Source: Pseudoleptotrichia goodfellowii
GTDB lineage: Bacteria; Fusobacteriota; Fusobacteriia; Fusobacteriales; Leptotrichiaceae
Direction: 5' to 3'
NCBI RefSeq assembly: GCF_007990505.1
Contig: NZ_AP019822.1
Coordinates: 434,001-498,000, forward strand
Length of the DNA stretch: 64,000 nt
Of the stretch, positions 13,488-55,648 are shown one piece after another. A model generated the notes under the pieces. The model ran no database searches. It had not been told where the DNA came from and saw nothing but the letters and a program-made list of their open reading frames with translations. Positions within the stretch are counted from its first letter, which is position 1; each line of letters begins with the position of its first letter. The translations under genes and the position numbers were made by a program.

Positions 13488-14410
13488 GATCCTATGCAAA
13501 TATAGCAATTATAAAATATTGGGGAAAAAAAGATGCGAAAAATATGATTCCCGCAACAAGCAGCATATCTCTAACCCTTGAAAATATGTATACAGACACT
13601 GAAATAAGTTTTATCGAGTCTGAAACAGATGTATTTTATCTCAATGGAGTGCTGCAGGATAGTAAACAGACAGAAAAAATAAGTAAAGTAGTGGATCTGT
13701 TCAGAGAAAATAAGGAACAGAAAGTATTGATAAAAAGTGAAAATAATATGCCTACTGAAGCCGGACTTTCTTCAAGTTCGAGCGGATTGTCGGCACTTAT
13801 AAAAGCCTGTAATAAACTTTTCAGGAAAAATATGACAAGAACGGAACTTGCCCGAATCTCCAAATACGGCTCAGGCTCGTCAGCGAGAAGTTTTTTCGGA
13901 CCGATAGGGGCCTGGGATAAGGACACTGGAGAAATATACGAAATAAAAACCGATCTAAAATTAGCGATGATAATGCTTGTATTGAATGAAGAAAAGAAAA
14001 TAATATCAAGTCGTGAAGGAATGAAACTTTGTGGAGAAACTTCAACGATATTTGATAAATGGATAAAAAATTCCGAAATTGAATATGAAGAAATGAAAAA
14101 AGCACTTGCTGAAAATAATTTTGAAAAAGTTGGAGAGTTGACGGAGAAAAATGCCTTGGCAATGCACGAAACGACACTTTACGCAAATCCTCCGTTTTCA
14201 TATTTGACGGATAAAAGCAGAGAAGCTATGGAATTTGTAAAAAAATTGAGAAAGAGCGGAGAAAAGTGCTATTTTACAATGGATGCAGGTCCTAATGTGA
14301 AAGTGTTGTGTCTTGAAAAAGATTTTGAAAAGTTGAAATATGTGTTAGGAAAAAAATACAAGATAATTGCTTCAAAAACAAAGGTGATTACCGATGAAAA
14401 TAACGATTAA
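13469..14410 (+). CDS. mvaD: Diphosphomevalonate decarboxylase
   Basis: A 313-residue GHMP-superfamily enzyme converting diphosphomevalonate to isopentenyl diphosphate. Diagnostic features: ANIAIIKYWGKKDAKN at the N-terminus, PATSSISLTL, EAGLSSSSSGLSALI for the ATP loop, and FTMDAGPNVKVLC near the C-terminus. Starts inside the end of mvk and overlaps the next kinase by 17 nt, so these three are translationally coupled. Confidence 0.95.
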   Translation: MDTKSVRSYANIAIIKYWGKKDAKNMIPATSSISLTLENMYTDTEISFIESETDVFYLNGVLQDSKQTEKISKVVDLFRENKEQKVLIKSENNMPTEAGLSSSSSGLSALIKACNKLFRKNMTRTELARISKYGSGSSARSFFGPIGAWDKDTGEIYEIKTDLKLAMIMLVLNEEKKIISSREGMKLCGETSTIFDKWIKNSEIEYEEMKKALAENNFEKVGELTEKNALAMHETTLYANPPFSYLTDKSREAMEFVKKLRKSGEKCYFTMDAGPNVKVLCLEKDFEKLKYVLGKKYKIIASKTKVITDENND

Positions 14411-15410
14411 TAATACTGATTTTGTAGAAGAAAAGGCTTGCGGAAAGCTCTATATAGCGGGAGAATACGCTATATTGACACCGGGATTGACAGCGATTGT
14501 AAAGAATGTGAACATTTACATGAATGCACAAATAAGATTTTCCGAAAAATATAAAATATATTCGGATATGTATAATTACTCTGTATCGTTAGAGCATGAT
14601 GAAAACTACAGTTTAATACAGGAAACTGTAAATGTTGTGAATAAATATCTGCACATAAAAAGTATAGATACAAAGCCTTTTGAACTTAATATAACAGGAA
14701 AAATGGAAAAAGAAGGTAAAAAATACGGTATAGGCTCAAGCGGAAGTGTTGTAATACTCACAATAAAGGCTATGGTGAGACTTCATAAATATTGTATTTC
14801 CAAAGACACAATTTTCAAATTGGCTGCTTATGTTCTTTTAAAAAGAGGAGATAACGGCTCTATGGGAGATTTGGCATGCATTGCTTATGAAGAACTTGTA
14901 GCTTATATTTCTTTTGACAGAGAAAAAATAAAAGAAAAAATTGAAAATGAAACTTTTGAAAAGGTTATTAATAGCGACTGGGGATACAAAATAGAAGTGC
15001 TGAAATGCAAGCATGACTATGAATTTTTAGTAGGTTGGACAGGAAAACCCGCTATTTCCAAAGATATGATAAATAATGTGAAAAAGTCTATAAATAAAGA
15101 TTTTTTGGAAAAATCCGATGAAAATGTAAAAAATATTATAAAAGGAATAAAGTCGGGAAATAAAGAGTTAATAAAAGAAGCAGTTATTAAAAGCGGAGAT
15201 TTATTGAAAAATCTGGATTCTTCAATCTACAGCAATGAGTTGACTGAACTTGTGAATGCTGCAAAAGAACTGGATATGTGTGCAAAAAGCAGCGGTGCCG
15301 GAGGAGGAGATTGCGGAATAGCAATATCTTTTAATAAAAATGACACAAAAACTGTTATAGAAAAATGGGAAAAAAAGGGTATTGTTTTGTTGTACAGGGG
15401 GAGATTATAA
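14394..15410 (+). CDS. Phosphomevalonate kinase
   Basis: A 338-residue GHMP kinase of the bacterial phosphomevalonate kinase type. It has KLYIAGEYAILTPGLTAI near the N-terminus, YGIGSSGSVVILT for the ATP loop, and SSGAGGGDCGIAISF near the C-terminus. Position between mvaD and the IPP isomerase agrees. The gene is immediately followed by a foreign-looking promoter for the Abi_2 leader RNA. Confidence 0.92.
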   Translation: MKITINNTDFVEEKACGKLYIAGEYAILTPGLTAIVKNVNIYMNAQIRFSEKYKIYSDMYNYSVSLEHDENYSLIQETVNVVNKYLHIKSIDTKPFELNITGKMEKEGKKYGIGSSGSVVILTIKAMVRLHKYCISKDTIFKLAAYVLLKRGDNGSMGDLACIAYEELVAYISFDREKIKEKIENETFEKVINSDWGYKIEVLKCKHDYEFLVGWTGKPAISKDMINNVKKSINKDFLEKSDENVKNIIKGIKSGNKELIKEAVIKSGDLLKNLDSSIYSNELTELVNAAKELDMCAKSSGAGGGDCGIAISFNKNDTKTVIEKWEKKGIVLLYRGRL

Positions 15411-15414
15411 ATAG

Positions 15415-15443
15415 TTGACAAATTATAAAAAAAAGGGTATCAT
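15415..15443 (+). promoter_or_regulatory. Promoter of the Abi_2 leader RNA (locus 1)
   Basis: TTGACA at 15415-15420, 17-bp spacer, TATCAT at 15438-15443. The expected start is near 15450. It lies 4 nt after the phosphomevalonate kinase stop codon. Confidence 0.7.
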
Positions 15444-15449
15444 TATACT

Positions 15450-15533
15450 AACAATGGATCGTACTGTATCAATGATTTTTTTAAGAAGTCGATACAGGCT
15501 GTATAAAAAGCCCCTTTAAAGGGCTTTTTTACA
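15450..15533 (+). ncRNA. Structured leader RNA of Abi_2 locus 1 (candidate RNA antitoxin or regulator)
   Basis: About 80 nt between the promoter and the Abi_2 ribosome-binding site. A 7-bp stem CTGTATC (15464-15470) with GATACAG (15491-15497) encloses a 20-nt loop, and a terminator hairpin follows directly. There is no credible ORF inside. The layout promoter, short RNA, terminator, HEPN toxin gene is that of RNA-neutralised toxin systems. Function as antitoxin is inference. Confidence 0.55.
15506..15530 (+). terminator. Intrinsic terminator between leader RNA and Abi_2 gene
   Basis: AAAAGCCC pairs with GGGCTTTT around a CTTTAAA loop, followed by a T run (15525-15530). Only a fraction of transcripts would reach the Abi_2 gene. 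Confidence 0.85.
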
Positions 15534-15552
15534 TATCCGGAGAGGGGGATTT

Positions 15553-16485
15553 ATGGATCAGCCATTTAAAACTTTTGAGGAACAAAGAAATATATTATTC
15601 AATCGTATGATTGTAGATAATGAAACTATTTCTATCTTGATGAGATATAATTATTATTCTATTGTAAATTTTTATAAAAAACCTTTTATCTTGGGCAAAA
15701 ATTCAAAAGGAGAAGATACATATATTCTGAATATCAGTTTTAAACATTTAAAAGCATTGCATGACTTTGATAAAAAGTTGAGAATTTTGTTTTTTGAATA
15801 TCTTACAGAGTTAGAAAAATTTTTTAAAACGGTTATTGCTTACTATTTTTCGGAAGTATACGGTCAAATAGAAAAAAATCCTTATCTCTTACCGAAAAAT
15901 TATAATACAGGACATGAAAATAAAAATATTCATTATATTTCTTACTTAATCAAAACTTTGAATAATATAAAAAAAGATAATGAAAAGATTATAATAAAAC
16001 ACTATAATACCACAAAAGACAATATACCCTTTTGGATTATAGTACATTATTTAACTTTTGGAGATATTAGCAAATTATATTTTTGTCTAAAAACTGAAAT
16101 ACACGATAAAATAAGTTCTCATTTTCAAAATTTATACAAAGTAGAGTATAATAATTTAGTTGCTATTTCTCCATCTTTTATAAAAAGTTTTTTATCTACT
16201 GCTTCTATTTTTAGAAATGTAACAGCACATAATGAGAGATTATATAATTATTCTTCCAAAAGAACGATTAATATTAAAAAAAGTCCTGTTTTAACAAATA
16301 ATAAAAGACAAAAGCTTTTTACCATTTATGAAGGATTAAAATTCTTTTTGTCCAGAAAAGAATATGACAAGCTTACAGAAAATTTAAAAAATATAATAAT
16401 CGTCTTGGAAGAAGATTTGGAAAATGTTATTAATATAAACAGTATTTTAATAGAAATGGATTTTCCTGTAAATTGGCATAAATAA
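15553..16485 (+). CDS. Abi_2 family (AbiF/AbiD-like) HEPN abortive-infection protein
   Basis: A 310-residue protein of the Abi_2 family. The family opening PFKTFEEQRNILFNRMIV is clear, followed by LMRYNYYSIVNFYKKPFI, LHDFDKKLRILFFEYL, and IPFWIIVHYLTFGDISKLYF. The HEPN RNase motif is at about residues 217-226, FRNVTAHNERLYNY, giving R-x4-H. HEPN Abi proteins are RNA-cleaving toxins that stop growth on phage infection. GGAGAGGGGG precedes the ATG. The gene and its leader interrupt the mevalonate operon. No cognate protein antitoxin is adjacent; the leader RNA is the candidate. Confidence 0.88.
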   Translation: MDQPFKTFEEQRNILFNRMIVDNETISILMRYNYYSIVNFYKKPFILGKNSKGEDTYILNISFKHLKALHDFDKKLRILFFEYLTELEKFFKTVIAYYFSEVYGQIEKNPYLLPKNYNTGHENKNIHYISYLIKTLNNIKKDNEKIIIKHYNTTKDNIPFWIIVHYLTFGDISKLYFCLKTEIHDKISSHFQNLYKVEYNNLVAISPSFIKSFLSTASIFRNVTAHNERLYNYSSKRTINIKKSPVLTNNKRQKLFTIYEGLKFFLSRKEYDKLTENLKNIIIVLEEDLENVININSILIEMDFPVNWHK

Positions 16486-16550
16486 AATTATAGAAAGGAA
16501 AAAGTTGTTTCAAAAATATGATCAGGTATTTGAGAGAACTTTAAATCGTA

Positions 16551-17558
16551 ATGAATAGAAAAGACGAACATATAAGATATGCGTTAAAATACGAGAGTCC
16601 TTATAACAGTTTTGACGATATGGAGCTTATACACCAATCCGTTCCGAAATTTAATATTGATGAAATAGATATTTCGGCAAGATTTGCGGGTAATGATTTT
16701 GAGTGTCCGTTTTTTATAAATGCTATGACCGGAGGAAGTGAAAAAGGCAAAGAAATAAACAGAAAACTTGCAAAAGTTGCTGAGGAATGCGGTATTTTGT
16801 TTGTTACAGGATCATACAGTGCAGCTTTAAAAAATTCCGATGACAATTCTTTTAAAATTGTAAAAGAGGAAAATAAAAAACTCCTTCTCGGAACAAATAT
16901 AGGAGCGGATAAAGATTATACAGCGGGACTTAAAGCTATAGAGGATTTGAAACCTTTATTTTTGCAAATACACGTAAATGTTATGCAGGAGCTTATAATG
17001 CCGGAAGGAAGCAAAAATTTCAAAGACTGGAGAAAAAATATAGAAGGTTTTGTTAAGAATATAAAAATCCCTCTGATATTAAAAGAAGTAGGCTTCGGAA
17101 TGAGTGAAGAAACTGTAAAGATTGGAATGGAGTCAGGAATAAAAACTTTTGATATAAGCGGTCGTGGAGGCACAAGTTTTGCATATATAGAAAATATGAG
17201 AAGAAAAAACAGTCTTTCTTATCTCGATGAATGGGGACAGACAACGGTAACTTCCCTTTTAAGTGTAAAAAAATATGCCGACAATATAGAAATAATAGCA
17301 AGCGGAGGAGTGAGAAATCCTCTCGATATAATAAAATCTTTAGTGTTGGGAGCAAAAGGTGTAGGAATATCGGGAACTGTATTGAGATTAGCTGAAAAAA
17401 ACACTGTTGAAGAAATGATAGAGATTGTAAACAGTTGGAAAGAAGAATGTAAAATGATAATGTGTGCATTGAATGCACAAAATTTGGAAGAATTAAAAAA
17501 AGTAAAATATATTTTATACGGAAAAGTAAAAGAGTTTTCCGAAGGATATTTCAAATAA
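16551..17558 (+). CDS. fni: Type 2 isopentenyl-diphosphate delta-isomerase
   Basis: A 335-residue FMN- and NADPH-dependent isomerase interconverting IPP and DMAPP. The family N-terminus MNRKDEHIRYALKYE, FINAMTGGSEKGKEIN, LILKEVGFGMS, and the FMN-phosphate region SGGVRNPLDIIKSLVLGA are present. It is the expected fourth mevalonate-operon gene but is now 1.1 kb from the third because of the Abi_2 insertion. The Shine-Dalgarno is weak (GAGAG 14 nt upstream), so expression may depend on read-through. Confidence 0.94.
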   Translation: MNRKDEHIRYALKYESPYNSFDDMELIHQSVPKFNIDEIDISARFAGNDFECPFFINAMTGGSEKGKEINRKLAKVAEECGILFVTGSYSAALKNSDDNSFKIVKEENKKLLLGTNIGADKDYTAGLKAIEDLKPLFLQIHVNVMQELIMPEGSKNFKDWRKNIEGFVKNIKIPLILKEVGFGMSEETVKIGMESGIKTFDISGRGGTSFAYIENMRRKNSLSYLDEWGQTTVTSLLSVKKYADNIEIIASGGVRNPLDIIKSLVLGAKGVGISGTVLRLAEKNTVEEMIEIVNSWKEECKMIMCALNAQNLEELKKVKYILYGKVKEFSEGYFK

Positions 17559-54604: not shown

Positions 54605-54679
54605 AAGTGAATTACAAGCGAGCTGAGGCGGACTTGTGGAGTCTTACCTATCTGCGGAGAAGTAAGACTTTTTATTTTA
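54605..54679 (+). ncRNA. Structured leader RNA of Abi_2 locus 2
   Basis: About 75 nt with two hairpins. ACAAG (54614-54618) pairs with CTTGT (54633-54637); GTCTTAC (54641-54647) pairs with GTAAGAC (54662-54668). Both loops are 14 nt and purine-rich with a CTGnGG element. The second hairpin plus T tract is the terminator. It looks intact, although the toxin gene behind it is broken. Antitoxin role is inference. Confidence 0.55.
54641..54679 (+). terminator. Terminator between leader RNA 2 and the Abi_2 pseudogene
   Basis: Perfect 7-bp stem GTCTTAC/GTAAGAC, 14-nt loop, followed by TTTTTATTTT. Confidence 0.82.
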
Positions 54680-54694
54680 ATTAAGGGAGGATTT

Positions 54695-55624
54695 ATGAGT
54701 AAGCCGTTTAAAACTTATAGACAACAACTTTCTATTCTTAGAAATAGAGGAATGGAAATAAAAGATGGCGGTAAAGTTATAAAAATTTTAAAAAGGGAAA
54801 ATTATTATAGTATAATAAATGGATATAAAGATATTTTTATAGATAATAATTCTACAATTGAAAAGTTTAAAATGGGAACTACTTTTGAAGATATATATTG
54901 CATTTTTGAATTTGATAGAAATTTAAGAAATATTTTTAAAAAAACATTTTAAAAATTGAGAGCCTTGTAAACACGAAAATTTCTTATTATTTCTCAGAAA
55001 AAAATCAAAAAGAATTCAGCTACTTAAATATTAATAATTTTCACCCAAGTAAATTAGAAGAAAATACAGGACTGATAGCAAATATATCACATGTCATAAA
55101 AGATAAAAGTAAGTCGAATAAAAATAATCAAATTTCTCATCATTTAAAAAATCATCAAGACTTTACTTCTTTGGGTATTAATAAAACAATTTACGTTTGG
55201 TATTACAGCTTTTTTCTATTCTTCTCTTACAGATGATATTAAGGCTAAAATTTCAAATGAAATATCGAGTGAATATTCTCATGAATATAAGAACATTAAA
55301 ATTAACCTTTCTAAAGAAGAATTAGAAAATGTTATTCATTTTTTGAATTTTTTGAGAAATAAGTGTGCCCATAATGAACGTTTTTTTAATACAAATAAAA
55401 AGAAAACTGCTATTGAATATCCGCATAGTTCAGAAATATTTAAAGGAAGATTATTTGATGCTGTTCTTTTACTAAAATTATTTTTATTTAAAAAAGATTT
55501 TAATATTTTTAGAAAAGAATTGAAAATAGAAATAGATAAAATAAATAAAGAGTTGAATACGAGTATATTTAATAAAGTATTAATAGAAATGGGGTTCCCA
55601 AAAAATTGGGAAGAAAGAATTTAA
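54695..55624 (+). pseudogene. Abi_2 family (AbiF-like) toxin gene with two frameshifts
   Basis: Three consecutive frames rebuild a 309-residue Abi_2 protein, the same length as locus 1. It starts MSKPFKTYRQQLSILRNRG. A one-base loss in the A7 run at 54938-54944 moves the frame into ILKIESLVNTKISYYFSE. A one-base gain near 55165-55170 returns it, giving LWVLIKQFTFGITAFFYSS. The HEPN motif LRNKCAHNERFFN is intact in the last part. Ribosome site GGGAGG and start are like those of locus 1. Probably inactive, unless slippage at A7 and a second event occur. Confidence 0.85.
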
Positions 55625-55648
55625 AAAGCAATTAATTACTAAAAATAA

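Follow-up and report, generated by a model that had tools for sequence, protein, structure and literature searches.

A probable AbiF-type RNA-neutralised toxin-antitoxin module inserted in the mevalonate operon of Pseudoleptotrichia goodfellowii

In C. difficile, the AbiF system consists of a SigA promoter, the RNA RCd22, a Rho-independent terminator and abi_2 (Saunier et al. 2025, PMC12373285). Mutation of R202/H207 abolishes the toxicity of the protein, while RCd22 acts in cis by premature termination and in trans by binding and neutralising the toxin; RF03085 is a motif in this antitoxin RNA (PMC12373285). As relayed by PMC12373285 and PMC12737573, Zilberzwige-Tal et al. (2025) described PbAbiF-AbiFr of Prevotellaceae as an AbiF toxin with an RNA antitoxin and connected it with the origin of Cas13. 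The HEPN domains of AbiD/F have been linked to Cas13 and to RF03085 (PMC12165695).

Within the 64,000-nt stretch of DNA analysed here (the window), a cassette at 15415-16485 very probably represents an AbiF-type RNA-neutralised toxin-antitoxin or abortive-infection module, inserted at the pmvk-fni junction. This reading draws on the family, fold and catalytic motif of the gene, the anatomy of promoter, RNA and terminator, a covarying RNA that is linked to the toxin, and the insertion itself, all observed here. Judged by its sequence, the locus has every feature of an AbiF/AbiFr system that can be tested at this level. The system type has been known since 2025; what is new is the present copy, where it lies and the variant of its RNA. 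The locus and its neighbours comprise:

14394..15410, + strand: phosphomevalonate kinase-like GHMP kinase gene (pmvk), intact left neighbour
15415..15443, + strand: sigma-70-type promoter TTGACA-17-TATCAT of the RNA/abi transcript, 11/12 consensus
15450..15504, + strand: antitoxin-like RNA core, AbiFr-type, from fold, covariation and model R1; 5' end predicted
15457-15462, + strand: GAUCGU, unpaired, in the RNA core
15464-15470 / 15491-15497, + strand: RNA outer stem CUGUAUC / GAUACAG
15474-15480 / 15484-15490, + strand: arms of the RNA inner hairpin
15505..15530, + strand: intrinsic terminator hairpin AAAAAGCCC-CUUUAAA-GGGCUUUUUU, located between RNA and toxin gene
15505-15513 / 15521-15529, + strand: terminator arms
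15540..15548, + strand: purine-rich ribosome-binding site GAGAGGGGG of abi, from sequence, followed by ATG
15553..16485, + strand: abiF-type Abi_2 HEPN toxin gene, 310 aa, from ORF, family, motif and fold matches
16551..17558, + strand: fni, type 2 isopentenyl-diphosphate isomerase, intact right neighbour

The one ORF between the GHMP kinase gene and fni (15553-16485) matches PF07751 (Abi_2; E 1.1e-36) and the AbiD model of PADLOC (E 1.2e-45). Its HEPN motif, R221-N-V-T-A-H226, occupies codons 221-226 (16213-16230); R221 and H226 do not vary among 13 aligned homologues, and the 310 residues contain a single R-x4-H motif and one HEPN domain. When the AlphaFold model of the protein (pLDDT 86.6) was submitted to Foldseek, 8vz6_A was the only significant PDB match (E 1.7e-8, TM 0.72/0.75), and a PDB sequence search likewise returned 8VZ6 as its only significant match (E 8.6e-8). 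Identity to PbAbiF was 21% in the structural alignment. From its entry title we take 8VZ6 to be a "PbAbiF dimer bound to ncRNA". Based on conserved motif and fold, the Abi_2 protein is predicted to be a HEPN ribonuclease and a dimer. The Abi_2 gene with R-x4-H that an earlier note on this DNA had recognised is thus borne out by family, AbiD model, invariant RNVTAH residues and PbAbiF fold.

The leader lies 5' of abi on the same strand and has its own predicted promoter, a structured RNA and an intrinsic terminator ahead of the gene. The promoter ranks first among 17 promoter-like sites in 2 kb, a total close to the 12.3 expected by chance, and homologous loci have a promoter at the equivalent position. 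The predicted RNA (~15450-15530, ~80 nt) combines a two-part hairpin, whose outer stem is A/U-rich, with the terminator hairpin. Its folding energy (leader 15450-15531) is -21.6 kcal/mol, compared with -12.5 +/- 2.8 in shuffles (z = -3.2), and RNA model R1, in which the leader itself is included, matches 15451-15510 (E 3e-14). A simple terminator scanner missed the terminator because its U-run belongs to the stem; the arms were nevertheless located. All three elements named in the earlier note, TTGACA-17-TATCAT, an ~80-nt structured RNA and a terminator, are therefore present.

Comparison across Abi_2 loci, which the same note had proposed, provided evidence for the RNA. When seven close leaders were scored against the 12-pair structure, standard pairs made up 83% of the cells and 14 changes were two-sided, as in CUGUAUC/GAUACAG of the window versus CUAUAUC/GAUAUAG of G010. 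The covariation score of these seven was 0.476, against at most 0.25 with the partner slid by 1-3 columns, and 0/500 shuffles reached it. Pooling all leader types in one MAFFT alignment put stems in the wrong place; pairs were therefore formally counted only in these close sequences, and a manual alignment served for the wider set. In 14 leaders aligned in this way, GAUC(G/A) or a near variant is followed directly by a stem of varying sequence; 95% of positions were paired versus 58% after arm exchange, a supporting value only, as arms were picked partly for pairing. Single-sequence shuffles of the wider leader set were weakly significant. RNA and protein distances were strongly correlated (Mantel r 0.90; 0/5000 permutations), and a terminator was found in the 130 nt preceding the abi start at 60/71 distinct Abi_2 loci, compared with 13/89 other ORFs of the same loci and 6-12/71 in shuffles. 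The layout of promoter, RNA, terminator and abi recurs in Fusobacteriales, Lachnospiraceae and viral contigs. R1 gave 17 confident matches in 13 of 33 family genomes, and those examined were upstream of intact or broken abi, or were orphans. On this comparative evidence the leader RNA is real, because covariation, co-evolution with the toxin, terminator enrichment and R1 matches at abi loci coincide.

The terminator that almost every locus has between RNA and gene would also suit a leader that is a cis-acting attenuator only, limiting abi and perhaps sensing a signal, with no binding or neutralisation of the protein; the C. difficile mechanism does include premature termination (PMC12373285). 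We consider this improbable. Conservation is highest in the RNA ahead of the terminator, exceeding that of the terminator itself; this RNA covaries, tracks the protein and persists where the gene is gone. The structure 8VZ6 is, moreover, an RNA complex. Relatives act in trans by binding (PMC12373285), as the antitoxin reading proposes.

Rfam did not recognise the RNA: the abiF RNA model RF03085 had no match at E<=10 in the leader or its own genome, the leader gave only sub-threshold chance matches to Rfam, and the whole window contained no match at the gathering cut-off. Since RF03085 likewise fails to match almost all of the other Abi_2 leaders tested, a match to it is not a defining feature of AbiF RNA systems. 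By its sequence, the RNA at this locus is a subtype missed by Rfam's abiF model. Elsewhere in the window (54606-55625, + strand) there is a second, decayed Abi_2 gene with 33% identity and several stops or frameshifts; an intact-looking promoter, a hairpin RNA (about 54606-54676) of a different subtype (GUGAAUUACAAG.../CUUGU) and a terminator are located directly upstream. Further Abi_2 remnants or distant homologues occur in the same genome (G000) at C1:1007350, C1:183825 and C1:1369987 (L003, L004, L005).

Could the RNA instead be a guide or sensor, with which AbiF recognises a phage transcript as Cas13 does with crRNA? The relatedness of AbiF and Cas13 HEPN domains (PMC12165695) and the unpaired segments of the RNA would fit such a role, but the stem and GAUCGU are fixed within the RNA subtype, repeats and spacers are absent, and the 310-aa protein has a single HEPN domain. 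AbiF proteins characterised so far are non-guided toxins with an RNA antitoxin (PMC12373285, PMC12737573), and we regard a guide function as highly improbable.

The position of the cassette was examined in Leptotrichiaceae, using genome collections with one genome per species. In the window, mvk overlaps mvd and mvd overlaps pmvk, whereas pmvk and fni are separated by 1140 bp. In all relatives with both genes placed, the pmvk-fni gap is 17-332 bp or an overlap and never contains abi; it is 40 bp in a genome of the same genus (G001), and in G002 the contig ends just past the uninterrupted fni start. Conversely, neither pmvk nor fni was found adjoining homologous abi loci. In relatives the cassette sits elsewhere: ahead of infC in G010 and G017, ahead of nrdF (ribonucleotide reductase small subunit) or relB in G004, G008 and G017, and beside a gene recognised by eye as parA-like in G001. 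The data support an insertion of 15415-16485 in this lineage, because the pmvk-fni junction is uninterrupted in all relatives with both genes placed. This is what the earlier note had suspected from the overlapping mevalonate genes and the 1.1-kb gap, and the presence of Abi_2 at this position in all relatives, which would have spoken against it, was seen in none of those examined. The insertion has left both the C-terminus of pmvk and the start of fni intact. No terminal inverted repeats stand out around the cassette, and a transposon origin was rejected: in DNA this rich in A+T, flanking repeats as short as ATAG (15411-15414 / 16490-16493) and ATTATA carry no weight. Separately, a phosphomevalonate kinase homologue is split across frames in G014 (L053/L064) and in G009 (L054), reflecting either a pseudogene or a sequencing error.

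The gene directly downstream of the insertion, fni, is probably essential. A terminator and a toxin gene now separate pmvk from fni, and the host's tolerance of the cassette would therefore have to include a polar effect on fni or an internal promoter. A frame of 17 codons plus stop (16505-16558, + strand), with a TTG start and an RBS-like AAAGGA, has a stop that overlaps the fni start (ATGAATAG); translational coupling of fni to this frame after the insertion is possible. The location within the operon, on the same strand and with a terminator in the path of pmvk-fni transcripts, might suggest a domesticated regulator in which AbiF or its RNA senses isoprenoid status and controls fni. However, only this genome has the cassette there, copies in relatives being upstream of infC, nrdF, relB and others, and we give this explanation almost no weight.

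Several relatives retain the RNA while the gene behind it has changed. In G014 (L116), promoter, RNA and terminator are intact and the abi interior is lost. At the infC site, RNA and abi are found in G010 and G017, whereas the same RNA precedes a DUF3644/EC042_2821 defence gene in G015 (L124) and G018 (L129), in the latter as a remnant; by sequence comparison, this gene has replaced abi behind the same RNA. In G009 (L125) the RNA stands alone at another site, with promoter and RNA core kept and abi absent. In G011 (L128), an RNA near 1500 with promoter and terminator directly precedes a Fic/DOC gene (1635-2489), in tandem with a second RNA and a truncated abi. Relative to the abi-linked RNA of G010, the orphans differ at 0/50 (G015), 0/50 (G018) and 2/50 (G009) core positions, and at 34/198, 21/198 and 89/198 flank positions, respectively. 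These sequences indicate a clearly constrained RNA core, whether the constraint acted before toxin loss or also after it. DUF3644 was rejected as a second toxin type paired with the RNA; other DUF3644 copies in the family lack an R1 RNA, and the RNA before DUF3644 is therefore probably an orphan. Retention of the RNA after loss of the toxin was not used as proof of a toxin-antitoxin system, because the ORF is ~15 times the length of the RNA and would be struck first by chance. It is conceivable, but in our view unlikely, that the AbiF RNA is a selected unit of its own, serving in Leptotrichia species without the toxin as a stand-alone anti-addiction antitoxin against AbiF modules that arrive from outside, and that fni in the window, behind the terminator of the toxin, depends on read-through, making the module hard to silence.

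By analogy with characterised relatives, from which toxicity, RNA-protein binding, neutralisation and trigger are carried over, we propose that the single promoter would yield mostly an ~80-nt RNA ending at the intrinsic terminator, and occasional read-through the abiF mRNA. AbiF would act as a homodimeric HEPN ribonuclease. The RNA would be abundant and, carrying single-stranded GAUCGU next to a short stem, may bind AbiF and block the HEPN active site; the terminator would thus restrain toxin synthesis in cis, and the RNA would neutralise the toxin in trans. Should infection or another stress upset the RNA, AbiF would cut RNA and growth would stop. The earlier note's suggestion of an RNA antitoxin ahead of an AbiF HEPN toxin agrees with covariation, toxin co-evolution, the near-universal leader before Abi_2 and the literature, the function of the locus being that expected from relatives. 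Cas13 has been proposed to descend from non-guided AbiF and its RNA, and the locus offers a clean mobile AbiF example in Leptotrichiaceae, a family that also has Cas13a. Loci with the toxin intact, decayed, deleted or replaced behind the same RNA form a natural series, and these variants are test material for the RNA parts that matter and for RNA retention without toxin.

The proposed arrangement of RNA antitoxin, terminator and endoribonuclease toxin follows the logic of type III ToxIN systems. At this locus, no tandem-repeat array was found in the leader and no ToxN fold in the protein, whose fold match is to AbiF only. CRISPR-Cas13 shares a related HEPN RNase lineage (PMC12165695), in line with the proposal, mentioned in the earlier note, that AbiF-like HEPN proteins are Cas13 ancestors, but has two HEPN domains and a CRISPR array, whereas the protein here is single-HEPN and no CRISPR array or repeats were found in the cassette. 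The accompanying remark that Leptotrichia carries Cas13 applies to the family, with Cas13a matches in 5-6/33 genomes, and not to this genome, where Cas13a gave no match. The lactococcal abortive infection proteins AbiD/AbiD1/AbiF share Pfam Abi_2 and the PADLOC AbiD model with the present, putatively anti-phage protein; they are plasmid-borne in Lactococcus. PbAbiF/AbiFr (8VZ6) is alike in protein family, fold, R-x4-H and the presence of a short gene-associated ncRNA, and differs in protein sequence, with 21% identity. AbiFCd/RCd22 of the phi027 prophage has the same order of SigA promoter, short RNA, Rho-independent terminator, RBS and abi_2 with RNxxxH (PMC12373285). RCd22, however, contains two RF03085 motifs in 98-132 nt and resides in a prophage, whereas the RNA described here is a single stem unit of ~80 nt, distinct from RF03085, in a metabolic operon.
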